A stretch of DNA of 64,000 nt from Agromyces albus (GTDB lineage: Bacteria > Actinomycetota > Actinomycetes > Actinomycetales > Microbacteriaceae), in contig NZ_SDPN01000004.1 of assembly GCF_004134825.1 (NCBI RefSeq), positions 1-64,000 of the forward strand. Reading direction: 5' to 3'. This document shows, piece by piece, positions 10,970-55,372 of this stretch. Numbering within the stretch: the first letter of the stretch is position 1; each line of letters starts with the position of its first letter. The notes below the pieces were generated by a model, which was not told the DNA's origin, did no database searches, and worked only from the letters and a program-made list of their open reading frames with translations. Position numbers and translations under genes: made by a program.

Positions 10970-11043
10970 GGCGGGGTAGCTCAGGTGGTTAGAGCACACG
11001 GCTCATAATCGTGGTGTCGCGGGTTCGAGTCCCGCCCTCGCTA
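10970..11043 (+). tRNA. tRNA-Met (CAT), integration site of the island
   Basis: 74 bases. Acceptor GGCGGGG/CCTCGCT (two G-U pairs), D arm GCTC/GAGC, anticodon loop CTCATAA (CAT), T arm GCGGG/CCCGC with loop TTCGAGT. The sequence fits elongator Met rather than initiator, but an Ile-lysidine tRNA with CAT cannot be fully excluded by eye. The 3' 35 bases of the gene plus one more base are repeated at 55337-55372, showing that this tRNA is the attachment site. The gene stays intact after integration. Confidence 0.93.
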
Positions 11044-11044
11044 C
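11009..11044 (+). repeat. attL (36-bp direct repeat, copy 1)
   Basis: Starts TCGTGGTGTCGCGGG and ends CCCTCGCTAC. It covers the 3' side of the anticodon stem through the acceptor stem of tRNA-Met. It is identical to 55337-55372, while bases outside differ on both sides (ATAA against GTCT before, TTCG against AACA after). Confidence 0.95.
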
Positions 11045-11102
11045 TTCGAACTTCGGTTGACCAGGGTTTCTTGTCCTAGATAGAAGGACAGGACTCGATG
11101 AG

Positions 11103-11120
11103 TTCAACGATTATTCAACG
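11103..11120. repeat. Candidate integrase arm-type sites near attL
   Basis: TTCAACG at 11103-11109 and TTATTCAACG at 11111-11120, about 60 bp inside attL. TTATTCAACG recurs exactly at 55175-55184, inside attR. Short repeats near both ends and nowhere obviously coding fit arm-binding sites of a tyrosine integrase, but this rests on position alone. Confidence 0.4.
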
Positions 11121-11213
11121 TTTATCCGTCAGCGACCGCGTTCGGCGGGCTTCTGTGGAGAAGGTGTTCGGCCCGTCCCGGGTCGCTTGGGGTGATCTGG
11201 CACACCTACGGGT

Positions 11214-11444
11214 ATGGACATCGAACGCCTCTCAGGACTCGGCCTGGAGCCGATTCTCACGACGAGCGAGCTCGCCGAGTATCTCGGCGTGCACGTGCAG
11301 GCGATCTACGACCTGCGCGCCGCCGGCCGGGGGCCTGCCGGCATCCATGTCGGACGCGAGATCCGTTACCGGGTCTCCGATGTCCACAGCTGGATGGACC
11401 GACTCCACGAGCCGGAACCCAGCCCCGCGAATCGTGCGGGGTGA
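11214..11444 (+). CDS. Excisionase-like MerR/HTH_17 DNA-binding protein
   Basis: 76 residues, nearly all a winged-helix domain: LTTSELAEYLGVHVQAIYDLRAAGRGPAGIHVGREIRYRVSDVHSWMDR. This is the pattern of helix-turn-helix excisionases (AlpA/Xis class) that direct an integrase toward excision. It lies 6 bp upstream of the integrase gene in the same direction, so the two are probably co-transcribed. The ORF is intact. Confidence 0.8.
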   Translation: MDIERLSGLGLEPILTTSELAEYLGVHVQAIYDLRAAGRGPAGIHVGREIRYRVSDVHSWMDRLHEPEPSPANRAG

Positions 11445-11450
11445 CCGCTG

Positions 11451-12638
11451 ATGGCCGGCCGACCGCGCCTGCCGATCGGCACCTTCGGCGAGATCAAGGC
11501 GAATCAAGTTGGCCAGGGACGGTTCCGTGCCTACACGCGCTTCCGCGACTGGGACGGTCGAACGCGGCAGGTCACCGCGAGCGGTTCGAGCCGGAGTGTT
11601 GCGAAGACTGCGCTCAAGGTCGAGCTTGCCGGGCGCATGCGCGTCGGTGATGCTGGTGATTCGCTCCGGGCGGACTCACCGTTCTCGGTTCTCGCGGAGG
11701 CCTGGCTCGAAGACTTGCAGCTGGACGTGGATCGGTCCGATGGCACCAAAGAGGTGTACGAGCGTGAGCTGCGGAGCCTTGTACTGCCGTTCTTCGAGCA
11801 TTTCACTGTTCGCGAGGTGACTGTCGGCCGTGTCGAGCGGTATCTGAGGGCACAACGTGCGCAGTCGTACGCGCGCGCGAAGCACTCGCGCACCATCCTG
11901 AGCATGGTCATGGCCCTCGCGGTGCGGCGAGAGGTCATCCCGCGTAACCCCGTCAAGGAGACGTCGCGACTGAAGAAGCCGAAGCACACCCCGAAGGCCA
12001 TCACGCCGGAGCAGATCACCGCGATTCGTACGGCGGCTCGCGAGTGGCGGACGGGCGACGATGTGAAGGGCCCGAGACCAGACGGACAGGTGAGGGATCT
12101 CATCGAAGTGATGCTCGGTACTGCAACACGCATCGGCGAGACGCTCGCGTTGAGGAAATGCGACGTGGACATGACGGCGGATCCGCCCCGAGTTCACGTC
12201 AGCGGGACGATCGTCGTGCGCAAGGGCGCCGGCGTGCTTCGTCAGTCGCACCCCAAGACCGATGAGTCGAACCGGCTCGTTGCCATTCCGGCATTCGCAG
12301 CGGAGGTCATTCGCCGAAGGCTGGCATTGATCGCCGGCGAGGATGGAGAGCACCTGCTCTTCTTCACCAAGAAGGGCACGCCGCTCGCACCGCACAACGC
12401 CAGACGCACGTTCCGCGACATCCTGAAAGACGCAGGCCTCGAGGGCATGGAGATCACTCCCCACGCATTCCGTCGCACGGGAGCCACGCTGCTCGCGAAT
12501 GAAGTTGGCATCGAGACGGCCGCCGACGTGCTCGGGCACACCTCGACGTCGACGACAAAGGAGCACTATGCGGAGCCCGATCGCTCGGTCAACCCAATAA
12601 CGGCAACAGTGCTGCAGCGCCTGGCGCCACGATCATGA
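11451..12638 (+). CDS. int: Tyrosine recombinase (site-specific integrase)
   Basis: 395 residues, full length. The N-terminal part (residues 1-60) resembles the arm-binding AP2-like domain and is followed by a SAM-like core-binding domain. The catalytic residues are visible: Arg in GTATRIGETLALRKCDV, His-x-x-Arg in TPHAFRRTGATLLA, His in VLGHTSTSTT, and the nucleophile Tyr in KEHYAE. It would join the 36-bp tRNA-Met site to the circular element. It has no frameshift, so excision may still be possible. Confidence 0.93.
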   Translation: MAGRPRLPIGTFGEIKANQVGQGRFRAYTRFRDWDGRTRQVTASGSSRSVAKTALKVELAGRMRVGDAGDSLRADSPFSVLAEAWLEDLQLDVDRSDGTKEVYERELRSLVLPFFEHFTVREVTVGRVERYLRAQRAQSYARAKHSRTILSMVMALAVRREVIPRNPVKETSRLKKPKHTPKAITPEQITAIRTAAREWRTGDDVKGPRPDGQVRDLIEVMLGTATRIGETLALRKCDVDMTADPPRVHVSGTIVVRKGAGVLRQSHPKTDESNRLVAIPAFAAEVIRRRLALIAGEDGEHLLFFTKKGTPLAPHNARRTFRDILKDAGLEGMEITPHAFRRTGATLLANEVGIETAADVLGHTSTSTTKEHYAEPDRSVNPITATVLQRLAPRS

Positions 12639-13094
12639 ACATGGTGGGCTCAGCTCGACCCGCGAGTCACGATTCGCTTGGACAACGTTCGACCGCCTGT
12701 CTGGCCTCGTCGAGAGGCGGTCCTGATCGCAGGCTGGCGAGTTCGGGCGTCCAGTGCGACCTGGGGCGACTGAGGCGCGCGTCACGCACGACACGGTGGT
12801 GCCGAATCGGCCGCACCGTGTGATCTGGGGTTTCCCGCTGTCGAATGAACTCGCGCGGTGTCGATTTGTCGTGCCGGCGATTGCCGCGCCAAGCAGAAAA
12901 CCCCTGATTCTCTCGCGTCGGCGCTTAGCAATCACGCTCATGTCAAGTAGGTGCTCAACCGCTCCCACGAGCAAAAACGTGCGCATCTGTCGTTGAGAGA
13001 AGCGGCCAGCCTGCAACTTCTCAGCCACGGAAGAACGCCACGCCTCTTGCAGATCGAGGGTGCGCACCTTCTCGGCGATGACGGGGGTGGCGCG
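12639..13094. other. 456-base gap between integrase and relaxase
   Basis: No gene is called. A long minus-strand frame crosses it and reads plausibly between about 12,800 and 13,110 (KLQAGRFSQRQMRTFLLVGAVEHLLDM) with a partly GC3-rich codon pattern, but it has no clear start, runs on under the relaxase, and matches nothing I recognise. An origin of transfer would be expected just upstream of a MobF relaxase; I see no unambiguous inverted repeat and nick site. Confidence 0.35.
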
Positions 13095-13856
13095 GTGACG
13101 GTGTCGATGCGGGTGATGAGTGCTGGCGACGGGTTCCGGTACCTGTTGCGCACGGTCGTAGTCAACGATGGGGAGAGGTCGATGTCGACGCCGTTGACTC
13201 GTTACTACGGTGCGAAGGGCACGCCACCAGGGCGCTGGATGGGTAGCGGACTTCCCAGCATCGGTGCCGGCGTCATTGCGGAGAGTGACGAGGTCACTGA
13301 ATCGCAGTTGCAGTTGCTCATCGGGATGGGCAGGGATCCGGCCACCGGGAAGCCACTCGGACGCGCATATCCGACCTACGAGCACTGCGACCGGCGGCGT
13401 CGTGCGGTTGCCGGGTACGATTTCACGTTCTCGATTCCGAAGTCGGCGAGTGTCCTGTGGGGGATTGCGGATGCTACGACGCAGGAGCGAATTGTGCGTG
13501 CGCACCAGGCTGCGGTTGCGCAGGCGCTGGCGTTTCTGGAGCGGGAGGTTGCGGCCACACGCACCGGTGCAACATCTCGCGATGGGGCCGTTGCGCAGAT
13601 CGATGTCACTGGCGTGGTTGCGGCGGCGTTCGATCATTTCGATAGTCGGGCGGGCGATCCGCATCTGCACACGCACGTCGTGATCAGCAACAAGGTGCAG
13701 GCCGTGCTCGCGATCGCGCGGCGAAAGTGCTCGGTGCGGATGCCTCAAGCTGGGCGCACCCTGCAACCGCGAACCCTGCACAGCGGGTGCTGCGAGCGGA
13801 TGATGTGCCTCTCGTCCAGATCGCCGCACTCGGCGCGAGGGTCACGGCGGCGGTGA
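13095..13856 (+). pseudogene. MobF (TrwC-type) relaxase, N-terminal fragment
   Basis: The first ~200 residues are a good TrwC relaxase domain: start region GTG ACG GTG TCG ATG (VTVSMRVMSAGDGFRYLL), the double tyrosine in TRYYGAKGTPPGRWMGSG, GYDFTFSIPKSASVLWG, and the metal-binding histidine triad HLHTHVVISNK. GGGGGTGG precedes the GTG start. Directly after SNKVQ (nt ~13,700) homology stops and the frame reads nonsense to 13856. The next recognisable relaxase segment (ARDRAAKVLGADASSW) follows at once in another frame, so roughly 200 codons are missing. Nicking of an origin of transfer would need the lost part. Confidence 0.85.
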
Positions 13857-16204
13857 GCGAGAAGCGCGCGACCTGGCGGCACTGGAACCTCGCCGCTGAA
13901 GCGGCCCGCCAGACCATGGGTTACCGATTCGGCACGGCATCTGACCGCGAAGCAATCATTGGGCTCGTCACTGATGCCGCCGAACGGAGGTCGTTGCGAC
14001 TCACGCCGCCGGAGCTTGCGTCGAGCCCGGCAGCCTTCCGACGGGAGGACGGAACCTCGGTGTTCCGCCCGAAGCACTCCACCGTGTTCACCTCGACAGC
14101 GCTGCTCGACGCTGAGTCCCGGTTGCTGGACCTGGCCGCTGACGAGTCGGGCGCACGCCTGGCGCCGACGGCGTTGCGGGAGGTCGCACGGAAGCGACTG
14201 CCAGGCGGGGGAGTGCTCGCCGACGACCAACTCCAGGCACTCGCGAGGATTGCCGGCTCTGGCCGTGTCGTCGACGTGCTCGTCGGCCCAGCCGGTGCGG
14301 GCAAGACGACCGCGATGAAGGCCCTCCGCCACGCCTGGGAACAGGTTCATGGTGGAGCATCCGTGATCGGCCTCGCGCCGTCTGCCGCCGCCGCGCATGT
14401 CCTCGCCGAGGATCTTGGCATCGCGACCGAGAACCTCGCGAAATGGTGGCATGACCATCAGACAGACGGCGAGACCTTCCGGACCGGGCAGCTCGTGATC
14501 GTCGACGAGGCGTCGCTTGCCGGCACCCTTCCACTCGACCGCGTCGCCACACTCGCCGCACAGGCGGGAGCGAAGGTGCTGCTCGTCGGTGACCCGGCTC
14601 AACTACAGTCGGTCGACGCAGGCGGTGCGTTCGCCCTGCTTGTCAACGACCGGCACGACGCGCCGGAACTTGTCGACGTGCACCGCTTCGTGAACGAGTG
14701 GGAGAAGGCGGCATCACTCGGTCTGCGTCGCGGTGATCCTGAATCGGTCGACCGGTACCTCGCGCACGGCCGGGTGCGCGAGGGCGACACCGATGCGATG
14801 GCGGATGCCGCGTACTTGGCCTGGCGGGCAGATGTCCGGGCTGGTCGGGCGACGGTGCTGATCAGTGACTCGAACGACGCGGTCGCCGCGCTGAACCAGC
14901 GTGCTCGTACCGAACTCATCCTCGATGGCCGCATCGATGCGCTCCTCGAGCTTGACCTGCACGACGGCACCCGAGTCGCAGTCGGCGACGCGATCATCAC
15001 CAGGCGCAACGACCGCGGGCTGCGCGCGGGGCGGCGGTGGGTGCGCAACGGCGACCGGTGGACGGTCGTCGCGGTGCATCGCAACGGGTTGCTCGAAGTA
15101 CGGCGGCCCGAGCATCGATGGGGGAGCACGGTGGTCCTGCCCGCCGCGTACGTTCGGCAGCACGTCGAGCTCGGATACGCAGTCACGTCCTACCGTGCTC
15201 AGGGCATCACGACCGACACGGCGCACGTCGTCGCTGCCCCCGGGATGACCAGGGAGAACTTCTACGTTGCGATGACCCGTGGCCGGGAATCGAACACCGC
15301 CTACGTCGCCATCGATCGCCCGGATGTCGCGCACGTCGGCCCGCGACCCGGTGATGACGGGGAGACGACCGCACGGAGCATCCTGTTCGGTGTCCTGCAG
15401 CATGAAGGCGCCGAGCTCTCTGCGCACGAGACGCTGACGGCGGAGCAGGACGCGTGGGGCTCGATCGTCCAACTCGCGGCCGAGTACGAGACTATCGCGG
15501 CCGCCGCGCAGCACGACCGATGGGTAGCGGTGATACGTGCGTCCGGGCTCACGCCCGGGCAGGCGGATGCGGCGATCGAGTCGGATGCCTTCGGGCCGTT
15601 GACGGCGGAACTGCGGCGGGCCGAGTCGCATCACTTCGAAGTCGAGCAACTGCTCGCGAGCGTGGTTCGCGTGCGTGGGTTCGAGGACGCGGCGGATGTC
15701 GCGGCAGTACTCCACGCGAGACTGGCAGCCGCCGTCGCACAGGGTGCCGGCGCGCACGCCGTTGCCGGCCGGGCGCGGCGGAGACCTCGTCTGATCGCCG
15801 GTCTCATCCCACAGGCAGTCGGCCCGATGGATGCCGAGATGCGGCGCGCCCTGCACGAACGCGCCAAGCTCATCGAGTCACGTGCCCGAGCCATCCTGGA
15901 CCAGTCATTGGTCGCGGGGGAGGCGTGGACTCGGGCTCTCGGCCAGCCGCCGAACGCAGACACAGCTGCCGCGGCTGCGTGGCGTCGTCACGCGCGCACG
16001 GTCGCGGCGTACCGCGACCGGTACCGCGTCGTCGGCACGTTGGCGCTCGGACCCGCACCGGAGGCAACAGCGCAGAAGCTGGATGCCGCCTGCGCCAACG
16101 CCGCGCTGGTGGCCAGTCGACAGCTGTCAGACCGGGGCGCCGCATCTGCCGCGCCAGGTTCAATTGTCACGGCGTGGGTTCCGCCTGTCCGTCGTGAGTT
16201 CTAG
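13727..16204 (+). pseudogene. MobF relaxase, C-terminal helicase part (frame-shifted)
   Basis: The 3' part of the same ancestral gene. It holds a RecD/TraI-like superfamily 1 helicase: Walker A VGPAGAGKTTAMKAL (nt ~14,284), Walker B LVIVDEASL, motif LLVGDPAQLQSVDAGG, and the late motifs GYAVTSYRAQGITTD and FYVAMTRGRES. It ends in an Ala/Arg-rich helical tail. In full MobF proteins this is fused to the relaxase domain in one chain of over 1,000 residues; here the frame changes at the deletion point near 13,700. The internal GTG at 13727 is not a natural start. Homology in this frame begins slightly upstream, near 13,700. Confidence 0.85.
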
Positions 16205-16256: not shown

Positions 16257-16425
16257 TTAAAGTGGCCCGAAGAAGCCGGCGGCGATAGTCGCACCGGTGA
16301 ACCCCACCATGCGCCGATCCACCCGCGGCCGCCCCGTCGCCTTCACCTTCGGGGACAGCGGCCCGATCGGAGCCCAGGATTGCGGCAAGCTGCCCGACGT
16401 CGCGACGCGGCCTCCGATCTCCGGG
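16257..16425 (-). pseudogene. Probable IS5-family transposase remnant
   Basis: Minus-strand reading SWAPIGPLSPKVKATGRPRVDRRMV resembles the N-terminus of IS5-type transposases (pattern W..I.PLLP....GRPR.D.R). It then degenerates and ends. No terminal inverted repeats or remainder of the gene are seen. It fills the 221-base gap between the relaxase helicase and the sugar permease and may be a scar of the rearrangement that joined them. Confidence 0.4.
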
Positions 16426-17670
16426 TCAGGCCCGGCCGTGCGAACTGCGGGAGCGACGGGCGACCGCATCGAGCGAGACCGCGATGAGCACGACGGCGCC
16501 GGTGACCATATAACGGATCGACGAGTCGAGGTTGAGCAACGTCAGGCCGCTCGAGATCGACTGGATGACCAGAATGCCGAGCAACGCCGCGAAGGCCGAG
16601 CCGCGCCCGCCGAACAGGCTCGTGCCGCCGATCACGGCGGCGGCGATCGCGTTGAGATTCACGTCACCGCCGCCGCTCGACTGCGCGGCCGATGCGAGGC
16701 GCCCGGCCGCGAGCAGCCCGCCGACGGCTGCGAGGGTGGTGCAGGCGATGAAGGCGGTCGTGTAGACCGCGGTGATGCGGATGCCGGAGCGTCGCGCCGC
16801 CTCGCGGTTGCCGCCGACCGCGAAGAGCGAACGGCCCCAGCTCGTGCGGGTCAGGGCGTAGTTCGCGAGCAGCACGAGTGCGACGAAGAAGACGACCATC
16901 CAGCCGACCCCACGCGCCTGGTAGAGGTACCAGACTGCGAAGGTGAGCAGTGCCGCGAGCAGCCCGGCGCGGATGAGGGTGAGGCTGAGGGCGGGCGCCG
17001 AGAGTCCCGCGTTGCGGCGGATGCGGGCGCGAAGCAAGCCGCCGACGAGCACCGCCGCCGCGGCGAGCGCAACGAGTGCGTACGCGAGCCATTGCGGTAC
17101 GAAGGCGAGCTGACCGAAGTGGACGAGGGGCGAATCGAACGGCAAATTGATCGTGCCCTTCGGACCGAGCACGAACAGTTGGAGTCCGAGGAAGCCGAGA
17201 AGCCCCGAGAGCGTGATGACGAACGAGGGGACGCCGATCCGGTTGTAGATGAAGCCGTAGGCGAAGCCAATCAGGACCGCGACGCCGACCGCCGCCGCGA
17301 TCGCGAGCGGCAGGGGCCAGCGGTTGTCGATGAAGTTGATCGCCATGATCGCGGCGGCGAGGCCGCTCACGGATCCCACCGACAGGTCGATCTCGCCGAC
17401 GAGAAGCACGAACACGATTCCGAGCGCGATGACGCCGACAGGGGCGGATTCCATGAGCAGGTTCGTGAGGTTGCCGCTCGAGAGGAAGTACGGGTTCAGG
17501 ATCTGGAAGATGGTCCAGATGATCGCGAGGCCGGCGATGACGGGCAGGAACCCGAGGTCGCCGCCGCGGATGCGGTCGATGCCGGCACGGATGGCTCCAC
17601 CCATGCCGGTGTCGGCACGGAGCCGCTCGTCTTGGAGATCGGTGGGGATCGGGGGGATTGTTGTGGTCAT
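16426..17670 (-). CDS. Sugar ABC transporter permease (XylH/RbsC class)
   Basis: 414 residues, about ten hydrophobic segments. Family signatures: NLTNLLMESAPVGVIALGIVFVLLVGEIDLSVGSVSGL and the C-terminal NAIAAAVIGGTSLFGGRGS. The length and the split in the middle match XylH-like permeases rather than the shorter RbsC. It is the last gene of SBP-ATPase-permease, and its ATG overlaps the ATPase stop by 4 bases. The substrate is unknown. Confidence 0.9.
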   Translation of the reverse strand: MTTTIPPIPTDLQDERLRADTGMGGAIRAGIDRIRGGDLGFLPVIAGLAIIWTIFQILNPYFLSSGNLTNLLMESAPVGVIALGIVFVLLVGEIDLSVGSVSGLAAAIMAINFIDNRWPLPLAIAAAVGVAVLIGFAYGFIYNRIGVPSFVITLSGLLGFLGLQLFVLGPKGTINLPFDSPLVHFGQLAFVPQWLAYALVALAAAAVLVGGLLRARIRRNAGLSAPALSLTLIRAGLLAALLTFAVWYLYQARGVGWMVVFFVALVLLANYALTRTSWGRSLFAVGGNREAARRSGIRITAVYTTAFIACTTLAAVGGLLAAGRLASAAQSSGGGDVNLNAIAAAVIGGTSLFGGRGSAFAALLGILVIQSISSGLTLLNLDSSIRYMVTGAVVLIAVSLDAVARRSRSSHGRA

Positions 17671-18530
17671 CGTTCCGCGTCCTCGGTGGTGATGGTGTGC
17701 GTGGTCGGGGATGCCGTGTCGCCGCGGGAGCGGCGTCTGCTGACGGCGTTGTCGGTTGCGCCGGTGATGGCGGAGATGATCTCCTCGGTCGTGACGTCGC
17801 CGACTCGGAACTCGCCGTTGTTGCGGCCGAGTCGCAGTACGACCACGCGGTCGGCGACGGCCTTCACGTCTTCCATGTTGTGGCTGATCAGGATGACCCC
17901 GTGGCCGCGTTCCCGCAGACGCTCGACGAGGTTCAGCACCTCCGCGGTCTGCGCGACGCCGAGCGCCGCGGTGGGCTCATCGAGGATGATGAGCTTCGGA
18001 TCGCCGAGGAGCGAACGAGCGATCGCGACGGTCTGGCGCTGGCCGCCCGACAGCGACGCGATCGGGATCCGCACCGAGGGGATCTTTGCCGAGAGCTGTC
18101 GGAGCAGTTCCCAGGCGCGCACCTCCATGCCGACTTCGTCGAGCTGGAACGGGCGGCGCTCGCGGCCGAGGAAGAGGTTCTGCACGACGTCGAGGTTGTC
18201 GCAGAGGGCGAGATCTTGGAACACGGTGGCGATGCCCCGCTCGAGTGCGGCCATCGGCGTCGGGAGGGTCACCCGCTCCCCGCCGAAGTCGATCGTGCCC
18301 GAGTCGGGTGCGTGCACGCCCGAGAGCACCTTGACGAGGGTCGACTTTCCCGCGCCGTTGTCGCCGACGATCGCGACGACCTCGCTCGAGGAGACGTCGA
18401 GGTCGATGTCAGTGAGGGCAGCCACGGCTCCGAAGCTCTTCGAGATCCCCCGCAGGGAGAGGACGGTGTGGAGATTGGGGCGCGCGCCATCCGGCGCGGC
18501 CGCGGTGTCGGTTGCGGTGGTTGCGTTCAC
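17667..18530 (-). CDS. Sugar ABC transporter ATP-binding protein (single-domain XylG/FrcA type)
   Basis: 287 residues with one nucleotide-binding domain. Walker A VGDNGAGKSTLVKVLSG, Q-loop region VFQDLALCDNLDVVQNLFLG, signature LSGGQRQTVAIARSLL, Walker B LIILDEPTAALG, switch His in ISHNMEDV. Classical RbsA/XylG proteins have two such domains, but single-domain forms that dimerise are common in actinobacteria. A Ser/Arg/Thr-rich tail follows the core. It overlaps the permease gene by 4 bases. Confidence 0.9.
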   Translation of the reverse strand: MNATTATDTAAAPDGARPNLHTVLSLRGISKSFGAVAALTDIDLDVSSSEVVAIVGDNGAGKSTLVKVLSGVHAPDSGTIDFGGERVTLPTPMAALERGIATVFQDLALCDNLDVVQNLFLGRERRPFQLDEVGMEVRAWELLRQLSAKIPSVRIPIASLSGGQRQTVAIARSLLGDPKLIILDEPTAALGVAQTAEVLNLVERLRERGHGVILISHNMEDVKAVADRVVVLRLGRNNGEFRVGDVTTEEIISAITGATDNAVSRRRSRGDTASPTTHTITTEDAER

Positions 18531-18589
18531 GGTGTGACCTCTTCGTCGGTGCAGTGCGGTGGCTCGGTTGTGGTGGCGGTTCGAGGATG

Positions 18590-18626
18590 TCGGATGCCGC
18601 CCACGGCGCGCGTGGACGGCATCCGA
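18590..18626 (-). terminator. Intercistronic hairpin after the sugar-binding protein gene
   Basis: The arms TCGGATGCCG (18590-18599) and 18617-18626 are perfectly complementary, with an inner CCACG/CGTGG stem. It lies between the binding-protein stop and the ATPase start, the same relative place as the hairpins at 5782-5822 and 61808-61839. Confidence 0.7.
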
Positions 18627-18630
18627 TCGA

Positions 18631-20730: not shown

Positions 20731-20738
20731 TCTTCGAT

Positions 20739-20760: not shown

Positions 20761-20842
20761 AAAAATAACATTGTGCGTGTTACGCTCGGCTCGATTCGAC
20801 CGATGCACCCGCACGGTCTGCTGCACTGCAGGAAGGCGCGCA

Positions 20843-27381: not shown

Positions 27382-27388
27382 CAGGCGC

Positions 27389-42820: not shown

Positions 42821-42847
42821 GCGCCGGGACCATTCGAAAGGACTCTC

Positions 42848-47238: not shown

Positions 47239-48095
47239 CGGGGCGCGAGCACGTTCTGCCGTTGGGAGCCGAGTCCGTCGATGCCGAGCTCCATCACATC
47301 ACCTGGATGGAGCCAGATCGGTGGCCGGAAGCCCATGCCCACTCCCGGCGGCGTGCCCGTGTTGATGAGGTCGCCCGACTCGAGCACGAGGAACTGGCTG
47401 AGGTAGTGGACGATGAAGTACGGATCGAAGATCATCGTCGACGTCGAGCCCGTCTGGCGGCGCACCCCGTTGACGTCCAGCCACATGCCGAGGTCGAGCA
47501 CATCATCGATCTCGTCGGGAGTGACCAGCCACGGGCCGGCCGGGTTGAACGTCTCCGCCGACTTGCCCTTCGCCCACTGACCGTTGCGTTCCAACTGGAA
47601 TGCGCGCTCGCTCACATCGTTGACCACGACGAAGCCTGCGATGGCGTCGCGGGCCTGCTCGACGGAGTCCAGGTAGCTCGTGCGAGAGCCGATGACAATG
47701 CCGAGTTCGACCTCCCAGTCGGGCTTCGTCGAGCCGCGGGGGATGCGCACGTCGTCGTTCGGCCCGATGAGCGTGTTGGGGGACTTGGTGAAGAGGATCG
47801 GTTCGTCGGGCACGGCCTGCCCGGTCTCGGCGGCGTGGTCGCTGTAGTTGAGCCCGATGCAGAGGATCTGGTGCGGCCGTGCGATCGGCGCCCCGATGCG
47901 CTGGCCGCCGAGTTCGAGCGACTGGCCGGATGCCGCACGCGACGCGACGACGGGGCGGATCCGCTCGAGCCCGCCGCCGCCGAAGAAGCGCTCATCGAAA
48001 TCGTCGACGACGTCGGACAAGTCGACATAGCGACCGTCGGCGAGTAGCGCGGCGGGCCTCTCAGCGCCGAAGGCACCGATGCGGAGGAGTTTCAT
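47235..48095 (-). CDS. Fumarylacetoacetate hydrolase-family protein, probable diketo-acid hydrolase
   Basis: 286 residues. Family signatures: ILCIGLNYSDHAAETGQAVPDEPILFTKSPN, the metal-binding Glu pair in DWEVELGIVIG, NDVSERAFQLERNGQWAKGKSAETFNPAGPWLV, and LINTGTPPGVGMGF. This is the subgroup that includes 2,4-diketo-3-deoxy-L-rhamnonate/fuconate hydrolase, giving pyruvate plus lactate; related enzymes cut 5-hydroxy-2,4-diketopentanoate to pyruvate plus glycolate. The location next to an SDR and a lactonase supports that use over tyrosine breakdown. Confidence 0.87.
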   Translation of the reverse strand: MKLLRIGAFGAERPAALLADGRYVDLSDVVDDFDERFFGGGGLERIRPVVASRAASGQSLELGGQRIGAPIARPHQILCIGLNYSDHAAETGQAVPDEPILFTKSPNTLIGPNDDVRIPRGSTKPDWEVELGIVIGSRTSYLDSVEQARDAIAGFVVVNDVSERAFQLERNGQWAKGKSAETFNPAGPWLVTPDEIDDVLDLGMWLDVNGVRRQTGSTSTMIFDPYFIVHYLSQFLVLESGDLINTGTPPGVGMGFRPPIWLHPGDVMELGIDGLGSQRQNVLAPR

Positions 48096-49003
48096 GGAAC
48101 CTCACTGGTGTCGGGGCCGGAGAACCCGGCCCACAGCGGTTGGGGGAGCCCACGCACGCCGGGCCGGACGGTGAAGACCCGCCCTGAGTGCGGGAACAGT
48201 TCGAGCTGCTCATCGTCGAGGTCTTGGGTGGCCGTCGTGATCACCAGCACGTCGAGGTCGACTCCGGCGAAGGCGACGCTCGACGTGTGCGGCGCCGGAA
48301 CCTCGATGGAGGCGACCAGCTCGCCAGAAGGCGAGTACCGATCGATGCGACCGAGGCCCCACATCGCGATCCAGAGGTGCTCCTCGGCATCGATGCATAA
48401 GCCGTCGGGGTATCCGTCGTCGAACGAGAGATGCACCGAGCGCGGGCCCACCCGGCCGCTGGCGACATCGTAGGCACGAACCAGTACGCGCCGGCGTTCG
48501 GTGTCGACCGAGTAGAGGCGCGACCCATCGCGCGACCAGGCGAGGCCATTCGAGAGTGTGAGGTCGTCGTCGATCACCTCGATCGATCGGTCGAGGCCGA
48601 CCTGGACGAGCTGCTCCTGGTTCGAGGGCCCGGCGAGGCTAAGTGAGCCGACCAAATACCGGCCGAGCGGATCAGGCTTGCCGTCGTTGAGCCTTCGCGA
48701 GCCGGCGCTTGAGATCAGCCGCGGCCCCGGATGCAGCTCTCCTGCCTCATCGCGGACGTACAACCGCTCAGCTCCGGCGATCAACCAGGCACCCGAGGCA
48801 GATACGGCGATCGCGCCGACGGTCTCGTCGAGATCGAGTTCGTCACGGATCTCGAGAAGTCCGTCAGGGCTGAGGTCGGCCGAGTACACACGGCCGCGCC
48901 GGATGTTCACCCACAGCAGACGTTCCCGGATCGGATCCCAGAACGGGCCCTCGGCGAGCTCGTGTACCTGCGGGTGTGCGACGCGTATGCTGCCCTGGTT
49001 CAT
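48092..49003 (-). CDS. SMP-30/gluconolactonase-like aldonolactonase
   Basis: 303 residues, six-bladed propeller. The metal ligands expected for SMP-30 are visible: Glu in AEGPFWD, Asn in RRLNDGKPDPLGRYLVGSL, Asn in LSNGLAWSRDG, and Asp in YPDGLCIDAEEHLWIAMW. It would open the aldonolactone made by the dehydrogenase to the aldonate. It lies between the IclR and FAH genes with 4-base overlaps on both sides. Confidence 0.87.
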   Translation of the reverse strand: MNQGSIRVAHPQVHELAEGPFWDPIRERLLWVNIRRGRVYSADLSPDGLLEIRDELDLDETVGAIAVSASGAWLIAGAERLYVRDEAGELHPGPRLISSAGSRRLNDGKPDPLGRYLVGSLSLAGPSNQEQLVQVGLDRSIEVIDDDLTLSNGLAWSRDGSRLYSVDTERRRVLVRAYDVASGRVGPRSVHLSFDDGYPDGLCIDAEEHLWIAMWGLGRIDRYSPSGELVASIEVPAPHTSSVAFAGVDLDVLVITTATQDLDDEQLELFPHSGRVFTVRPGVRGLPQPLWAGFSGPDTSEVP

Positions 49004-49797
49004 GCGGTCCTCTCTCGGATTCCGGTCGTCTCGGCGATGATTGTGCGGATCTCATCGACCGATTCCAAAAGGGCAGGGAGCGGCGTGCGATAGGCCAACG
49101 CGCTGACACTCACCGCGCCCGACGGCTCCGTCGGTGACGAGAGATAGACCGGGAACGCGACGCAGTTGATACCCATCTCGTTCTCCTGGTCATCGACTGC
49201 GAAGCCGTTGCGGCGCGCCTCGTCGAGGCGCAGGTGCAGGTCGGTGGCCGTCACTGCGGTGTTCGGCGTCCGGGCTTCGAGCACGCGGTCCCCGATCCAG
49301 GAGACGACATCGCGTTCCGTGCGCACACGGGCAGCGAGGAGCGCCTTGCCGACACCCGTGCTGTGAACGGGGTTGCGCCCACCGATCGTCGAGGTCAGCC
49401 GCACAGCGCCGACCGACGGTTCGACTTTGGCGCGGTAGACGACCTCGGTGCCATCCATGACCGCGAAGTGCGCGGTCTCGCCGAATCGTGCTGCGAGACG
49501 CTCGAGGAGAGGTCGGACGCGGACATGCTCGGGCCGCGCCTCGTGGTGGGCGAAAGCCAGCCGGAGAAACTCATCGCCGAGAATGTAGTGCCCGCGACCG
49601 TCCTGCGAGGCGAGGCCCGCACGCCGAAGCGATGCGAGAGCTCGGTGCACCGTCGACTTCGGATTTCCAGTGAACCGGACCATCTCGTCGAGGCTCGCCC
49701 CAGCCGGATGGGAGGCGAGTTCCATGAGCACCGAGAGCACACGGTCGGAACCCACGAGCCGATCTCCGGCCCCTTCGATCTCCGTCATGCCTGTCAT
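49000..49797 (-). CDS. IclR-family regulator
   Basis: 265 residues from the start at 49797, where GCAGGA lies 5 bp upstream; an ATG at 49830 without a ribosome site would add 11 residues. HTH: VLSVLMELASHPAGASLDEMVRFTGNPKSTVHRALASLRRAGLASQDGRGHY. The effector domain holds TIGGRNPVHSTGVGKALLA and MGINCVAFPVY. It heads its operon and is divergent from the dehydratase gene; a palindromic region between them is its probable site. IclR proteins in sugar-acid clusters usually respond to a pathway 2-keto acid. Confidence 0.88.
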   Translation of the reverse strand: MTGMTEIEGAGDRLVGSDRVLSVLMELASHPAGASLDEMVRFTGNPKSTVHRALASLRRAGLASQDGRGHYILGDEFLRLAFAHHEARPEHVRVRPLLERLAARFGETAHFAVMDGTEVVYRAKVEPSVGAVRLTSTIGGRNPVHSTGVGKALLAARVRTERDVVSWIGDRVLEARTPNTAVTATDLHLRLDEARRNGFAVDDQENEMGINCVAFPVYLSSPTEPSGAVSVSALAYRTPLPALLESVDEIRTIIAETTGIRERTA

Positions 49798-49827
49798 TGG
49801 TCCTGCCTTCCGATCGCCTATGCTAAC

Positions 49828-49874
49828 CATAGTTTCATCAATTAGACCAACATTCCGAAAGTTGGAAAACTATG
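49828..49874. promoter_or_regulatory. Divergent promoter with nested inverted repeats (IclR site candidate)
   Basis: The outer arms CATAGTTT (49828-49835) and AAACTATG (49867-49874) and inner arms CCAAC (49847-49851) and GTTGG (49861-49865) are complementary. The outer right arm overlaps the dehydratase start codon at 49872, leaving no normal leader or ribosome site for that gene. Confidence 0.55.
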
Positions 49875-51584
49875 AAGTCTCTGCGGAGCTCCGAGTGGTA
49901 CTCGGGCGATGACAGAAACGCCTATATCCATCGCGCATGGATGCGCCGTGGTCTGCCGGGCGACTTTCACCACCGCCCGCAAATCGCCATCGCGAACACC
50001 GCCTCCGACTTGACGCCCTGCAACAGTCACCTCGATGAGGTCGCGCAGTCGGTGAAGAACGGCATCTACGAAGCCGGCGGAATTCCACTCGAACTTCCGG
50101 TCGTCTCACTCGGCGAGACCCAGGTGCGCCCCACGGCGATGCTGTGGCGGAACATGGCGGCGATGGCGACGGAAGAGATGCTCCGGGCCAACCCGATCGA
50201 CGGCGTGGTCCTGCTCGGCGGATGCGACAAGACCATCCCGGCTCTGCTCATGGCGGCTGCGTCCGTGGACATTCCCGCCGTCGTGGTACCCGGTGGCCCG
50301 ATGATCACCGGTCACTTCCGCGGTGAAGCGCTCGGTTGCGGCACCGATGTCTGGCGGCTCAGCGAGGAGGTGCGGGCCGGCGAGTTGAGCGAGCAGCTGT
50401 TCCTCCGGTCGGAGTCCGCCATGATCCGCAGTCGCGGGCACTGCAACACCATGGGTACGGCGTCGACCATGGCCCTCGTCGCAGAGGCGCTCGGCACCGT
50501 GCTCCCGGGGCTGGCGGGTACACCGGCACCCGACAGCCGGCTCCTCGAAGGAGCGCAGGAGACCGGCAGGCTCGCCGTGCAACTCGTCGCCCAAGACCGT
50601 CGCCCGAGCACCGTCCTCACCCGGGCGTCGTTCCACAACGCGATCGTTGCACTGGCAGCGATCGGAGGTTCGACCAACGCCGTCGTGCATCTCCTCGCGA
50701 TCGCGGGCCGGCTCGGCATCAACCTGACCGTCGACGATTTCGATCGCATTGGCGCAGAGGTGCCGCTCCTGGTCAACCTGCAACCCGCCGGGCGATACCT
50801 GATGGACGACCTGTACCGGGCAGGCGGGTTCCACGCTGTCCTGCGGGAGGTGCGGGATCTGCTCGACCCCGACGCTCTGACCATCACAGGGAAGCCGCTC
50901 GTGGACTATCTCGACGACGCCAAGATCTGGGACGCCGACGTTATCACCCCGCGCGAACAGCCCCTACTACCGGCAGCCGGAATCTCCGTGCTGCGCGGTT
51001 CGCTGGCGCCCGGCGGCGCGATCATCAAGCCCGCCGCGGCATCCCCGCACCTGCTCAAACACCGCGGCCAAGCGGTCGTGTTCGACAGCATCGAGGACTT
51101 CCATGCCCGCATCGACGACCCCGAGCTCGACATCGATGAGAACTCGGTGATGATCCTCCGCGGCTGCGGTCCGATGGGATACCCGGGCATGCCCGAAGTC
51201 TCGAACATGCCGCTGCCGAAAAAGCTCCTCGAGCAGGGCGTGCGCGACATGGTACGCATCTGCGACGGTCGGATGTCGGGTACCGCCTACGGCACCGTCA
51301 TCCTGCACGTCACGCCCGAGGCGGCCGCCGGAGGCCCTCTCGCGCGCGTGCACACGGGCGACTGGATCAACCTCGACGTACGCAACCGTCGCCTCGACGT
51401 CGAGGTCCCTGCCGATGAGATGGAAGCCCGCGGCGTGAACGAGGCGACCGTGAAAGGGTTCGCCAACCCCCGCCGCGGCTGGGAACGCCTCTACGTCGAC
51501 CACGTCATGCAAGCCGACACCGGCGCCGACCTCGACTTCCTCGTCGGCTCGAGCGGTTCGAAGGTCAGCCGTGAGTCACACTGA
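49872..51584 (+). CDS. IlvD/Edd-family sugar-acid dehydratase
   Basis: 570 residues. The start LRSSEWYSGDDRNAYIHRAWMRRGLPGD is that of aldonate dehydratases (L-arabinonate/D-xylonate type), not of branched-chain IlvD. Fe-S cysteines are in LTPCNSH, LGGCDKTIPALLMA and RSRGHCNTMGTAST; GRMSGTAYGTVILHV is the C-terminal substrate region. It would dehydrate an aldonate to its 2-keto-3-deoxy acid. It is divergent from the IclR operon and overlaps the next gene by 14 bases. The substrate could be a pentonate or 6-deoxyhexonate. Confidence 0.9.
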   Translation: MKSLRSSEWYSGDDRNAYIHRAWMRRGLPGDFHHRPQIAIANTASDLTPCNSHLDEVAQSVKNGIYEAGGIPLELPVVSLGETQVRPTAMLWRNMAAMATEEMLRANPIDGVVLLGGCDKTIPALLMAAASVDIPAVVVPGGPMITGHFRGEALGCGTDVWRLSEEVRAGELSEQLFLRSESAMIRSRGHCNTMGTASTMALVAEALGTVLPGLAGTPAPDSRLLEGAQETGRLAVQLVAQDRRPSTVLTRASFHNAIVALAAIGGSTNAVVHLLAIAGRLGINLTVDDFDRIGAEVPLLVNLQPAGRYLMDDLYRAGGFHAVLREVRDLLDPDALTITGKPLVDYLDDAKIWDADVITPREQPLLPAAGISVLRGSLAPGGAIIKPAAASPHLLKHRGQAVVFDSIEDFHARIDDPELDIDENSVMILRGCGPMGYPGMPEVSNMPLPKKLLEQGVRDMVRICDGRMSGTAYGTVILHVTPEAAAGGPLARVHTGDWINLDVRNRRLDVEVPADEMEARGVNEATVKGFANPRRGWERLYVDHVMQADTGADLDFLVGSSGSKVSRESH

Positions 51585-54396
51585 CGCCCCCACGACACTC
51601 GAGGACGCGGGTGCGGAACTCCTCGAGGCGCTGGGCTCGACAGGTGTGCTCGTCAAAGCACGGGCGACTGACAGGCTCGCGGCCGCCCACGACGCCTCCC
51701 ACTACCAGTTCACTCCCCGGGCGATCGTCGTGCCGAGCTCCGTTGAAGAGGTCGCCGCCGTACTGGCGGAGAGCCGCCGGCTCGGCATTCCGGCGACCTT
51801 CCGATCCGGCGGCACGAGCCTCAGCGGACAGGCAGGATCAGCCGGCATCCTCATCGACACTCGCCGCAACTTTCGCCAGATCACCGTGCTCGACCACGGC
51901 CAGCGTTTGCGCACCGGCCCTGGCGCCACCGTGCGCGCGGTCAACACCCGTCTGCTCCGGCACAAGCGGAAGCTCGGGCCTGATCCGGCGAGCGAGATCG
52001 CCTGCACGATCGGCGGCGTGGTCGCGAACAACTCCAGCGGCATGGCCTGCGGCACCGAACACAACACCTACCGAACCCTCGAATCCACACTCCTCGTGCT
52101 GCCCAGCGGCACCATCGTCGACACTTCTCTTCCCGATGCCGATGACCTACTCCGGCTAGCCGAGCCCGCGATTCACGCCGGTCTCGAAGCCCTGCGCGAC
52201 CGCGTCCGTACGAATGAGGACTCCGTGGCACGGCTCGAACAGCTCTACGCGATCAAGAACACCATGGGCTACACACTCAACTCGTTTCTCGACCACGACC
52301 GCCCGGTGGACATCCTTGAGCACCTCGTCGTCGGAAGCGAGGGCACGCTCGCGTTCGTCGCCGAGGCGACGTTCCGCACGATCCCGCTCAAGACTCACCT
52401 GGCCACGGGCCTGCTCGTATTTCCCGACCTGGCGGCCGCGACGCTGTCCATCCCAGCGCTCGTGGCATCCGGGTTCGCGACGATCGAACTGCTCGACGCG
52501 ACCAGCCTCCGGGTGGCCCAACGCGACCCCGAAGCCACCGACGCGCTGCTCTCCCTGCAGGTCATCGATCACGCCGCGCTGCTCGTCGAATACCAGGAGG
52601 AGTCGGCCGAAGCGCTCGAACTCCGAGTCGCCCAATCCGTCGAAGTGCTGCGCACCCTCCCGCTCGCCTATCCATCGGCGCTGTCAACCGACCCGACGAC
52701 ACGAGCCCAACTCTGGCACATCAGGAAGGGCCTGTTCACGGCCGTGGCTGGCAGCCGGCCCTCCGGAACCAGCGCACTCCTCGAGGACATCGCCGTGCCG
52801 GTCGACCGGCTCTACCAGACCTGTATCGACCTGACCCGGCTGTTCGAACTCCACGGCTACGAGGACAGCGTGATCTTCGGGCACGCCAAAGACGGCAACA
52901 TCCACTTCCTCCTGAACGAACGCTTCGACGACCCGGCCTGTCTTATCCGCTACGAGGCGTTCACGGAGGACATGGTCGACCTCGTGCTCGCCCAGGGCGG
53001 CACCCTCAAGGCTGAACACGGGACCGGCAGAATCATGGCGCCGTTCGTTCGCCGCCAGATCGGCGACGAACTGTACGAGATCACACGGGCGGTGAAACGC
53101 CTCATCGATCCCGACGGCGTGCTGAACCCGGGCGTGCTCGTCTCGGACGACCCGCACGCGCACATCCGGGATCTGAAGACCACCGCCACCGTCGAAGGCG
53201 AGGTCGATCGCTGCGTCGAATGCGGGTACTGCGAACCCGTCTGCCCGAGCAAGGACTTGACCCTCACACCTCGGGAACGCATCGTCCTGCGTCGCGAGAT
53301 GGCCCGGGCTGAAGGGGCCGGGGACACAGCGCTGCTGCGCCAGCTCCGAACCGAGTACGACTACGACGGCGTGCAGACCTGCGCCGTCGACGGGATGTGC
53401 CAAACGGCCTGCCCGGTGCTCATCAACACGGGCGACCTCGTCCGTCGCCTCCGAGCGGAGAATCAGAACAGCGTGCAGGAGTCGACGTGGAGCGTCGCCG
53501 CGAGGCACTGGGATGCTGTCACCAACGTCGCCGGCGTCGCACTGACGATCACTGACCGCGTACCCGCGGCTCTTCCCCGACTGGCCACGGATGTCGCGCG
53601 CGCCGTCGTCGGCAAGGAAGTCGTTCCTCGGTACACTGCCGACCTTCCGAAGGGTGGGCGCCGTCGTCCGCGGCTGACCTCGGATTCTCCCGCAGCCGTG
53701 TACTTCTCGAGCTGCACGACAGCGATGTTCGGCGCGGCTGGGGACTACCACGGGGTCGCGGAGTCATTCGTGCAGCTCTGCAACCGTGTCGGCGTCGACC
53801 TCGTGACGCCCGACGACCTGCCGTCGCTCTGTTGCGGAACCCCGTGGAAGTCGAAGGGGCTCACGGTCGGCTACACCGAGATGAAGGAACGCGTGACCGC
53901 GTCGCTCCGACGGGCGACACGCGAAGGAATCCTTCCCGTCGTCTGCGACGCATCCTCCTGCACCGAAGGGTTGGAGGTGCTGCTGGAGTCGGCCGGTGCC
54001 CTCGGCATCCGGGTGATCGACGCAGTGGCTTTCGTCGACGAGCACGTGCTTCCGCTGCTGCCAGCGGGCGACAAAGTGGCTTCGCTCACGCTGCATCCGA
54101 CGTGTTCGTCCACGCGCCTCGGAATCAACGGGGCGCTCTCGCGGGTCGCGGCCGCCATTGCTGAGGAGGTCGTCGTTCCGGACGAGTGGAGCTGCTGCGC
54201 ATTCGCCGGCGACCGAGGCATGCTGCACCCGGAGTTGACCGCGTCGGCCACCGCCGGAGAGGCAGCTGAGGCGGGCGCTGCGGCATCCGTTGCTCACGCT
54301 TCCCTCAACCGCACGTGCGAACTCGGGATGACGAGGGCCACCTCGACGCCGTACCAGCACGTGCTGCAGCTGCTCAACCAGGTGACGCGCGACTAA
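51571..54396 (+). CDS. FAD-linked 2-hydroxyacid dehydrogenase with Fe-S and CCG domains
   Basis: 941 residues; a natural fusion equivalent to GlcD plus GlcF. The N-terminal FAD domain shows FRSGGTSLSGQAGSAGILID and CTIGGVVANNSSGMACGTEHNTYRTL; the cap domain carries GHAKDGNIHF and LKAEHGTGRIMAPFV. Two 4Fe-4S ligand sets follow (CVECGYCEPVCPSK and CAVDGMCQTACPV), then the cysteine-rich modules (SLCCGTPWKSKG, LHPTCSSTRLG, WSCCAFAGDRG). The GTG start at 51571 lies within the dehydratase gene. Members oxidise D-lactate or glycolate and feed electrons to the quinone pool; which of the two depends on the upstream sugar. Confidence 0.88.
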   Translation: MSHTDAPTTLEDAGAELLEALGSTGVLVKARATDRLAAAHDASHYQFTPRAIVVPSSVEEVAAVLAESRRLGIPATFRSGGTSLSGQAGSAGILIDTRRNFRQITVLDHGQRLRTGPGATVRAVNTRLLRHKRKLGPDPASEIACTIGGVVANNSSGMACGTEHNTYRTLESTLLVLPSGTIVDTSLPDADDLLRLAEPAIHAGLEALRDRVRTNEDSVARLEQLYAIKNTMGYTLNSFLDHDRPVDILEHLVVGSEGTLAFVAEATFRTIPLKTHLATGLLVFPDLAAATLSIPALVASGFATIELLDATSLRVAQRDPEATDALLSLQVIDHAALLVEYQEESAEALELRVAQSVEVLRTLPLAYPSALSTDPTTRAQLWHIRKGLFTAVAGSRPSGTSALLEDIAVPVDRLYQTCIDLTRLFELHGYEDSVIFGHAKDGNIHFLLNERFDDPACLIRYEAFTEDMVDLVLAQGGTLKAEHGTGRIMAPFVRRQIGDELYEITRAVKRLIDPDGVLNPGVLVSDDPHAHIRDLKTTATVEGEVDRCVECGYCEPVCPSKDLTLTPRERIVLRREMARAEGAGDTALLRQLRTEYDYDGVQTCAVDGMCQTACPVLINTGDLVRRLRAENQNSVQESTWSVAARHWDAVTNVAGVALTITDRVPAALPRLATDVARAVVGKEVVPRYTADLPKGGRRRPRLTSDSPAAVYFSSCTTAMFGAAGDYHGVAESFVQLCNRVGVDLVTPDDLPSLCCGTPWKSKGLTVGYTEMKERVTASLRRATREGILPVVCDASSCTEGLEVLLESAGALGIRVIDAVAFVDEHVLPLLPAGDKVASLTLHPTCSSTRLGINGALSRVAAAIAEEVVVPDEWSCCAFAGDRGMLHPELTASATAGEAAEAGAAASVAHASLNRTCELGMTRATSTPYQHVLQLLNQVTRD

Positions 54397-54500: not shown

Positions 54501-54710
54501 ATGCCGGTCGTGTACCTCCCCGAGACGTGGGGCGGGATCGGACAGTCGCTGCCGCCAGGTGCGCTGTCGACGCTCCTGCGTAACGTCGCGTACTTGCCCA
54601 ACGCGGCCAATTCGCCGTCTGCCTGGATCGTCCTGTGTGCCTGGGCCGCTGCTGCCGTCATTGCACTCGTGGTGTTCGCCTCGCGACGCCAATCGATAAG
54701 GGCCGTGTTC
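54501..54710 (+). pseudogene. ABC-2/YhgE-like membrane protein, C-terminal remnant
   Basis: The frame reads VYLPETWGGIGQSLPPGALSTLLRNVAYLPNAANSPSAWIVLCAWAAAAVIALVVFASRR, the last loop and helix of YhgE/Pip-like or ABC-2 permeases (pattern P..W...G..LPPGA....R...YF). Everything before it is missing, and after it the frame reads Arg-rich nonsense. Remnant only. Confidence 0.5.
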
Positions 54711-54772
54711 GACGACCGGTCCCCACCTTGCCGGCGACAGAGCGGCCAGGTGGACCAGTTCAGGAGAGTCCG

Positions 54773-55010
54773 AACTGACATCGGGTCATCGCGTCGAACC
54801 AGCGATCCGGCAGCCGGCTCAGGGCGACGGCAGTTCCCGCGCCGCGACCGACCCGGTAGCGAACATGCAGGCGGGGAGTGGTCGCAGCGATTGCGATGGC
54901 GGCCGCGACGACGTCCGGTTCGCTCGTGATCGCGGAAGTCTGCGCGGAACGGTGGTAGCGGGCTACCGTCGCTCCATCTAGTGGCGCGGCGAAGACCTCA
55001 CTCCCGGCAT
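54773..55010 (-). pseudogene. Short-chain dehydrogenase, C-terminal remnant
   Basis: Minus-strand reading SEPDVVAAAIAIAATTPRLHVRYRVGRGAGTAVALSRLPDRWFDAMTRCQFGLS followed by a stop is the usual end of NAD(P)-dependent SDRs of the RYRVG.GA......R.LPDR.FD type. The Rossmann part is absent. It lies tail to tail with the permease remnant at 54501. Confidence 0.55.
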
Positions 55011-55068
55011 GGCGTCCTTGGCTTACGCGTGTTCTGTTGTTGGGCCGACGTCCCAACGCCCTCCCACC

Positions 55069-55140
55069 GTCACCGATGTCCTGAGACATCAACTGTCACC
55101 GACGTCCTGCGGCAGGACTGTCACCGAAGTCCCGGGACAT
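55069..55140. repeat. Three tandem ~25-bp repeats resembling IS481-type ends
   Basis: GTCACCGATGTCCTGAGACA (55069), GTCACCGACGTCCTGCGGCA (55095) and GTCACCGAAGTCCCGGGACA (55120) follow at 26 and 25 bp. The motif resembles terminal sequences of actinobacterial IS481-family elements, but no transposase is nearby. Probably a scar of a lost insertion sequence. Confidence 0.55.
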
Positions 55141-55161
55141 GAAAGGGGAGGGGCAGTACTT

Positions 55162-55200
55162 GATGCGCACACGCTTATTCAACGAATATCGATCCGAATC
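55162..55200. repeat. Diverged ~39-bp repeat, copy B, with candidate arm site
   Basis: Contains TTATTCAACG (55175-55184), identical to 11111-11120 near attL. It sits about 150 bp inside attR, a position suitable for an integrase arm site. Similar along its length to 54423-54461. Confidence 0.4.
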
Positions 55201-55336
55201 CACCCCAGACGTTCCCAGCTCTCCCTAGTAGAGTCGCTTCCGCAACATCCGTTCTCTCAAGGAATCCCGGGCCAGTCCGAGACCATCCGAGATTTCGGGT
55301 TCGAGGAGAAAGACTCGAGAACGGCCCCCGGCGTCT

Positions 55337-55372
55337 TCGTGGTGTCGCGGGTTCGAGTCCCGCCCTCGCTAC
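55337..55372 (+). repeat. attR (36-bp direct repeat, copy 2)
   Basis: Exact copy of the tRNA-Met 3' end (11009-11044). Only the 3' part is present and the 5' half of the tRNA is absent, so this is the island's right junction and not a second tRNA gene. Confidence 0.95.

Follow-up and report, generated by a model that had tools for sequence, protein, structure and literature searches.

A catabolic island in a tRNA-Met gene of Agromyces albus, in all likelihood a decayed integrative and conjugative element

The clc element of Pseudomonas is a tRNA-borne, site-specific and self-transmissible catabolic integrative and conjugative element (ICE). In Actinobacteria, ICEs based on a type IV secretion system (T4SS) are described, in the part of Ghinet et al. 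(2011, PMC3218068) drawn on here, as combining an integrase gene (int), a type IV coupling protein (T4CP), VirB4 and a MOBF relaxase. According to the portions of a 2017 review used in this work (PMC5704250), cis-mobilizable elements (CIMEs) are decayed derivatives of ICEs or of integrative and mobilizable elements (IMEs) that retain att sites, tandem accretion with CIMEs is on record, and no canonical IME then known harbored a MobF relaxase, although later papers may differ. Excerpts of a 2021 survey of Mycolicibacterium place MOBF on plasmids. Here, 64,000 nucleotides of Agromyces albus (positions 1 to 64,000 of the 162-kb contig NZ_SDPN01000004.1, referred to as the window) are analysed, in which a 44-kb island occupies the 3' end of a tRNA-Met gene (Table 1). 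In all likelihood, this island is a decayed T4SS-type actinobacterial ICE that has kept its excision module. The comparison was carried out on 60 Agromyces genomes, i.e., the one under study and 59 others; in what follows, G-codes denote genomes and C-codes denote contigs.

Ends of the island and recombination module

The last 36 bases of tRNA-Met recur as an identical direct repeat at the far end of the island, which measures 44,328 bp when counted from the first base of attL up to the last one before attR. No match to the repeat with three or fewer mismatches arose in 100 dinucleotide shuffles, and its 29-bp core is present in just two copies in the whole genome (4.29 Mb, 111 contigs), both of them corresponding to the att sites; therefore, the repeat is not a dispersed tRNA fragment, and both chance and a dispersed tRNA repeat can be ruled out as the source of the pair. 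As in other tRNA genomic islands, the 3'-end repeat of the tRNA marks both edges and the integrase gene lies just inside one of them. These limits, as well as the integrase and the excisionase-like gene inside the left end, had been proposed in an initial annotation based on the letters of the window, and all of them hold, the two genes under family models (Table 1).

The same annotation placed a displaced tRNA terminator behind attR. A homologue of this stem lies directly after tRNA-Met in 7 of the 60 genomes (G072, G074, G019, G060, G008, G015 and G067), which supports the displacement; in six of the seven the repeat is present in a single copy, making them candidates for the empty site. The seventh, G067, is not an empty site, because the repeat recurs 9.8 kb further on. 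An unoccupied site is thus represented among the relatives by these terminator homologues and by G007, which lacks the island. The gene at 55464-56348, which had been labelled CHAP-like and expected to follow the terminator at an empty site, has no Pfam match at E<=0.001; its long DNA homologues were seen only in G082 and G002, and it is not the original right neighbour of the tRNA. The genes beyond the terminator homologue vary between species, and in none of the relatives does the complete right flank adjoin the tRNA, because this flank is itself variable.

Indeed, the att pair is exact, but the core genome does not begin at attR, since variable DNA continues past it: about 45 kb (55.4 to ~100 kb of the contig) are mostly not shared, with the exception of the stretch 82.1-84.9 kb. 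An ADH-IlvD gene pair follows at 100.5-103.3 kb and long collinearity with G007 (92%) starts from 110 kb; the distance from tRNA-Met to the ADH-IlvD pair is 2.8 kb in this close relative and ~89.5 kb here. The 44-kb piece might thus be the newest insert of a composite region, lying beside older decayed elements that extend to ~100 kb, a scenario which is compatible with a decayed ICE and which we marginally favor. Besides the non-shared DNA up to the ADH-IlvD pair, it is in line with a tandem in G067, where a left arm of the island type is located directly 3' of the second repeat, and with the recorded accretion of CIMEs mentioned above. On the other hand, no third att copy, which might have marked the right edge of a larger variable region, was found within 10 substitutions anywhere in the 162-kb contig. 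Positions 55464-100500 also contain further GH2 and GH1 homologues, and within 82106-83900 a stretch of ~860 bp is 94-97% identical to G007 and G020, against a background of 90-92%, with a sharply shared edge; it is probably an insertion sequence.

The integrase belongs to a large family. Its alignment with ten relatives gave identities of 52-73%, and the family was examined in named genomes through the best 80 of 240 encoding stretches, with identities up to 77%; 78 of these 80 loci also harbor a homologue of the HTH_17 protein (33-85% identical). The tRNA just before the integrase, scanned for in 35 of the best 80 loci, is tRNA-Met in 22 cases, tRNA-Arg in four, tRNA-Thr in four and tRNA-Lys in one, with no tRNA there in the remaining four. 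The distance between tRNA-Met and the integrase is 403-413 bp in 21 of the 22 loci (407 in the island) and 466 bp in the other.

The left inner arm, ~170 bp directly after attL, contains an inverted repeat (TTGTCCT...AGGACAG) together with TTCAACGATTA/TTCAACGTTTA repeats (TTCAACG) spaced by 11 bp. With 34 other genomes compared and 60 base shuffles as reference, its likeness reaches z values of 26-61 in G069, G020, G032, G013 and G012, and G082 gives a weak match (z 7.6); the order of the arm motifs is also conserved 3' of the tRNA in many loci of Cryobacterium, Leifsonia and Naasia. At the right end, the 215 bp up to the end of attR (55158-55372) have counterparts of 83-86% identity next to the second repeats in G034, G063 and G082. 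A full-length match was found nowhere else in the 60 genomes, G032 and G071 containing only pieces of 49-75 bp; the similarity is weaker in G020 (z 15.6, 60 base shuffles), and the right arms of six of the ten remaining genomes that have a repeat pair show none. When both contig strands are searched, the motif TTATTCAACG is present exactly twice, at 11111 and 55175; each arm has one copy, and the orientation is the same. Both inner ends recur in other Agromyces, where they enclose different contents, and the arm DNA may represent putative arm sites of the integrase.

A repeat pair at tRNA-Met was detected in 11 of the 60 genomes (A. albus, G020, G026, G030, G034, G035, G063, G067, G069, G071 and G082), and the intervals range from 3.2 to 51 kb; this gene is thus a hotspot for inserted elements in the genus. 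The second copy had to lie on the same contig and strand, and fragmented assemblies may hide more; a 27-bp copy 92 kb away in G081 and isolated additional copies located on different contigs (G063 C20, G067 C14) were left out, and G032 was dropped as a 34-kb direct-repeat element, its second copy being on the opposite strand. Among these intervals, only that of the island contains an intact copy of this integrase. The interval of G069 contains pieces of integrase and helicase; those of G026, G035, G067 and G071 contain a distant integrase match (28-33%) in the opposite orientation; in G020, G030, G034, G063 and G082 no integrase was found at E<=1e-3 with island-family integrases as queries, a search that an unrelated integrase could escape.

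The sequence comparison implies that integrase-mediated recombination between a 36-bp attP and the tRNA left an entire tRNA at attL and displaced the terminator to the far side of attR. As the att sites, the two arms, the HTH protein and the integrase are all intact, this excision module is predicted to release the island as a circle.

Table 1. Coordinates of the island and its features in the window
Feature	Position	Strand	Basis
tRNA-Met (CAT), integration target	10970..11044	+	ARAGORN
attL, 3' 36 bp of tRNA-Met	11009-11044	+	exact repeat
Left inner arm, putative integrase/excisionase arm sites	11045..11213	+	arm comparison across Agromyces
HTH_17 excisionase-like protein, 76 aa	11214..11444	+	Pfam 1.5e-13
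Tyrosine integrase, 395 aa, intact	11451..12638	+	Pfam Phage_integrase 1.6e-20
Broken MOBF (TrwC) relaxase/helicase gene	12951..16204	+	TrwC 2.3e-56, AAA_30 6.7e-62
Module A: ABC importer with xylF-like binding protein, DeoR regulator, 2-hydroxyacid dehydrogenase, two FGGY kinases	16421..25527		family scans
Module B: ADH/SnoaL-domain open reading frame, alpha/beta hydrolase, enoyl-CoA hydratase, GFA, aldehyde dehydrogenase, SDR, TetR	25654..33977		family scans
Module C: MFS permease, GH2, GH3, GH1, GDSL esterase, GH78 alpha-L-rhamnosidase	34066..45337	+	family scans
Module D: SDR, Zn-ADH, FAA hydrolase, SMP-30 lactonase, IclR, sugar-acid dehydratase, FAD/Fe-S D-lactate-dehydrogenase-like protein	45527..54396		NCBIfam, PDB, family scans
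Right inner arm with second TTATTCAACG (55175)	55158..55336	+	homologues beside second repeats
attR, second copy of tRNA-Met 3' end	55337..55372	+	exact repeat
Displaced tRNA-Met terminator	55373..55410	+	homologous stem directly 3' of tRNA-Met in 7/60 genomes

Transfer genes and sister elements

The poorly coding stretch 12.6-16.2 kb, beside the integrase, harbors a broken TrwC relaxase/helicase gene that had been missed. It is open only as two pieces in different frames, corresponding to the TrwC relaxase (12951-13856) and to the helicase (13727-16204), and ~370 bp are deleted between them if the G067 gene is taken as reference. Thus, the MOBF relaxase of a T4SS-based actinobacterial ICE is there, but not intact. 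No VirD4-type coupling protein is encoded inside the island, the single match of the genome to PF12696 (TraG-type) being on contig C39, and no VirB4-like ATPase was seen among the island open reading frames (ORFs) covered by general family scans, no search aimed at VirB4 having been made. Hence, the initial proposal of one transferable unit stands as far as a site-specific island with exact att sites is concerned, but not for the transfer functions: since the relaxase is broken and the coupling protein is missing inside, transfer would need an outside helper.

Three other contigs of this genome bear parts of such machinery, i.e., an integrase 66% identical to that of the island (C16), a relaxase whose helicase part is 87% identical and whose frame is open for 1182 codons (C20), and the coupling protein on C39; together, they may form one related ICE. 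The integrase on C16 (C16:22057-23241) is a second member of the family and is located in a different tRNA-Met. It is followed by GH20, GH3, GH2 and GH106 genes and an Opp-type importer, and its GH2 shares 75% DNA identity with that of the island; perhaps this locus is a second catabolic element.

At E<=1e-60, relatives of the helicase piece are present in 22 of the 60 genomes (A. albus included). The best-ranked plasmid record for this piece (Microbacterium) is 58% identical and the 60-80% band holds 1 of 2192 plasmid records. Relaxase homology was found behind the integrase in 9 of the best 80 named loci, for which up to 5 kb of downstream DNA were compared. Eight other genomes carry an integrase 65-73% identical to that of the island, and in the five of them that were tested for a coupling protein (G007, G020, G022, G029 and G075) PF12696 was present in all cases, and its distance downstream of the related integrase (65-71%) was 1.4 to 16 kb; the test covered eight genomes, i.e., these five, A. 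albus, G067 and G015, the last two giving no match. In G029 a VirB4-like ATPase (8.8e-8 to 4ag5) adjoins the coupling protein. The elements of these five genomes look like T4SS-based ICEs of Actinobacteria. In G020, a second tRNA-Met (within C1:1527500-1607499) bears a 72.8-kb repeat-bounded region with a coupling protein and an intact relaxase; type I restriction-modification genes are located near its right end and a further att copy lies 6.3 kb beyond.

The island might also have been an IME from the beginning, never possessing a T4SS and moving with its own MOBF relaxase on helper machinery. A possible model is found in G067 (A. humatus), where a 21.9-kb repeat-bounded element in tRNA-Thr encodes an integrase 62% identical to that of the island and an intact MOBF relaxase (helicase part 88%), and its nine scanned ORFs include neither a coupling protein nor a T4SS family; given this content, it is possibly a MOBF-type IME, of the type missing from the 2017 review if the content is as scanned, and the island shares with it the int-relaxase order. 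Nevertheless, an IME origin seems rather unlikely, because the closer integrases are all associated with a coupling protein on the element (5/5 tested genomes) and because canonical IMEs, in the portions of that review considered here, were all devoid of MobF relaxases by 2017. The derivation from a phage or a phage satellite is far less credible still and can be regarded as extremely improbable: 282 phage records do contain a related integrase, but none of them reaches 60% identity and the best-ranked stands at 37.6%, no structural or packaging gene was found among the ORFs scanned with Pfam, and the relaxase remnant points to conjugation. A plasmid origin of the integrase was likewise rejected (25 records, the best-ranked at 46%).

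Some observations weigh against the descent from an ICE that retains a working excision module. No second intact copy of the integrase was found at this tRNA-Met among the 60 genomes, the survey being limited in G012 and G027 by the closeness of the site to a contig end; such elements look therefore fossilised there, and the island itself may no longer move. In addition, the right arm of G069 is unlike that of the island although the left end is common to both, and G067 shows a terminator-like stem after tRNA-Met in spite of its second repeat. As for the sister elements, the coupling-protein frame of G029 and a third frame have no match among PDB sequences, and no relaxase match at E<=1e-60 was obtained in G004, G036 and G061 (integrases of 65-73%), three genomes outside the coupling-protein test, suggesting that not every sister is an ICE.

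Catabolic cargo and its origin

Four catabolic modules would have been gathered between the element ends (Table 1), and family scans bear out the mainly catabolic nature originally attributed to the cargo. Instead of three transport or uptake units, two were recognised in the scanned ORFs: the xylF-like ABC importer of Module A (16426-19818, minus strand) and the MFS permease of Module C (34066-35511). The matches of Module A to the xylF and XylB models fall below the model cut-offs, and a vanH-type identity of its 2-hydroxyacid dehydrogenase (20771-21910) was discarded, the NCBIfam matches being far below cut-off and indicating just the enzyme superfamily. Module B looks like a set for aldehyde, ketone and acyl turnover. 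The reported absence of defence genes holds for the ten proteins submitted to PADLOC (nine cargo ORFs and the integrase, no match); the other island ORFs were outside that run.

Module D, with its lactonase, IlvD-type dehydratase, dehydrogenases and FAA hydrolase, looks like a non-phosphorylative sugar-acid route. The best NCBIfam and PDB matches of the FAA hydrolase are to 2,4-diketo-3-deoxy-L-rhamnonate hydrolase, under the NCBIfam cut-off; because of this likeness and of the nearby GH78 rhamnosidase, L-rhamnose is a fair guess for the substrate. The same module contains a FAD/Fe-S D-lactate-dehydrogenase-like protein (51571-54396) beside this 2,4-diketo-3-deoxy sugar-acid pathway. Along such a route a 6-deoxy-D-sugar gives D-lactate, whereas L-rhamnose gives L-lactate, so that this protein would fit, as a guess, the use of a 6-deoxy-D-sugar rather than of L-rhamnose.

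The modules appear to be of separate origin, and at least one of them to have a native chromosomal locus in close relatives. Module A corresponds to a single block of 9.1 kb, 89% identical, in G007 and G020, at a locus with flanks common to both; in A. albus the same flanks are present on contig C2, ~0.8 kb apart and without Module A. The identity of the island copy with those of the relatives is 89.5-89.9%, that between G007 and G020 is 91.5%, and a core block of the three genomes shows 91.9-92.9%; these values suggest that the island copy probably derives from this clade or from a near congener. It may have moved from the C2 locus to the island, or it may have been lost and then regained. 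Part of Module B recurs elsewhere: 27.9-33.2 kb of the window have an 80% identical counterpart in G007 C3, and 29.7-33.2 kb a 75% identical one in G076. Homologues of the MFS, GH2, GH1 and GH3 genes of Module C (66-77%) are clustered, in a different order, in G008 C2, G015 C12 and G061 C19, and 45.5-51.6 kb of Module D form one block, 85% identical, on a different contig of G027. Three cases do not agree with a clean history: in G006 a GH3 homologue (72%) lies ~18 kb from the same tRNA-Met, in G032 a FAA hydrolase homologue (68%) is found ~5 kb away from it, and the ADH-IlvD pair of G007, so close to tRNA-Met, is paralogous to Module D. Part of the cargo is a block native to the genus and is not clearly foreign. 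The situation that would have spoken against an island, i.e., an integrase-free locus with the cargo genes in their vertical order, was not among the matches in the 59 other genomes.

The elements sharing ends with the island were scanned for their larger ORFs. The 51-kb element of G020 contains GH95, GH36, GH27-like, GH13 and GH49 genes and sugar importers (10 ORFs, two without a family); that of G063 (26 kb) encodes an aldehyde dehydrogenase, a glutamine-synthetase-like protein, PucR and a flavin reductase (six ORFs, two without a family); that of G082 (11 kb) M24 and M20 peptidases and two amino-acid permeases (four ORFs); and G032, which has the left end only, sugar ABC parts, LacI, AKR, a FAA hydrolase and GFO/IDH (10 ORFs, two without a family). 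Nutrient use appears as the common theme of the cargo scanned. Not every such element carries catabolic genes, since the tRNA-Thr element of G067 contains RHS/HINT, AbiEii and Fic genes and the element of G069 contains several ORFs repeated at equal length, which we take to be IS-like (insertion sequence-like).

A broader, and rather doubtful, proposal is that the tRNA-Met elements might serve as exchangers of catabolic genes in Agromyces and its kin, with constant recombination ends and interchangeable nutrient modules, some of which were captured whole from native loci. If this were true, a module could vanish from its native place and yet persist on an island, Module A being an example caught in the act; its presence on the island, while the native locus of the same genome is devoid of it, makes this an informative case.

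Comparison with known systems

No description of this locus was encountered in the available portions of the literature on Agromyces or Microbacteriaceae islands, tRNA-Met hotspots, Microbacterium ICEs, and IMEs or MOBF. The kind of element, a decayed tRNA-integrated ICE turned into a catabolic island, is already known; the instance is new and well bounded. Its value lies in the exact ends and in the existence of same-ended elements with a different nutrient cargo at one tRNA gene, which make it testable how actinobacterial catabolic genes enter and leave mobile DNA in soil bacteria.

The island shares with the T4SS-based actinobacterial ICEs the tyrosine integrase, the tRNA site and the TrwC/MOBF relaxase family, and its sisters add the T4CP (in five of them) and the VirB4-like ATPase (in G029); it differs in the broken relaxase, in the lack of a coupling protein inside and in the large sugar-catabolic cargo. 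As in a CIME, att sites and cargo have been kept and transfer functions lost, but the integrase and the HTH gene are intact, so that the island is not a CIME in the strict sense; the elements of G020, G082, G063, G034 and G030, where no family integrase was found, fit this class better. Finally, the island resembles the clc element in being a site-specific island with carbon-use genes and differs from it in phylum, integrase and transfer system.

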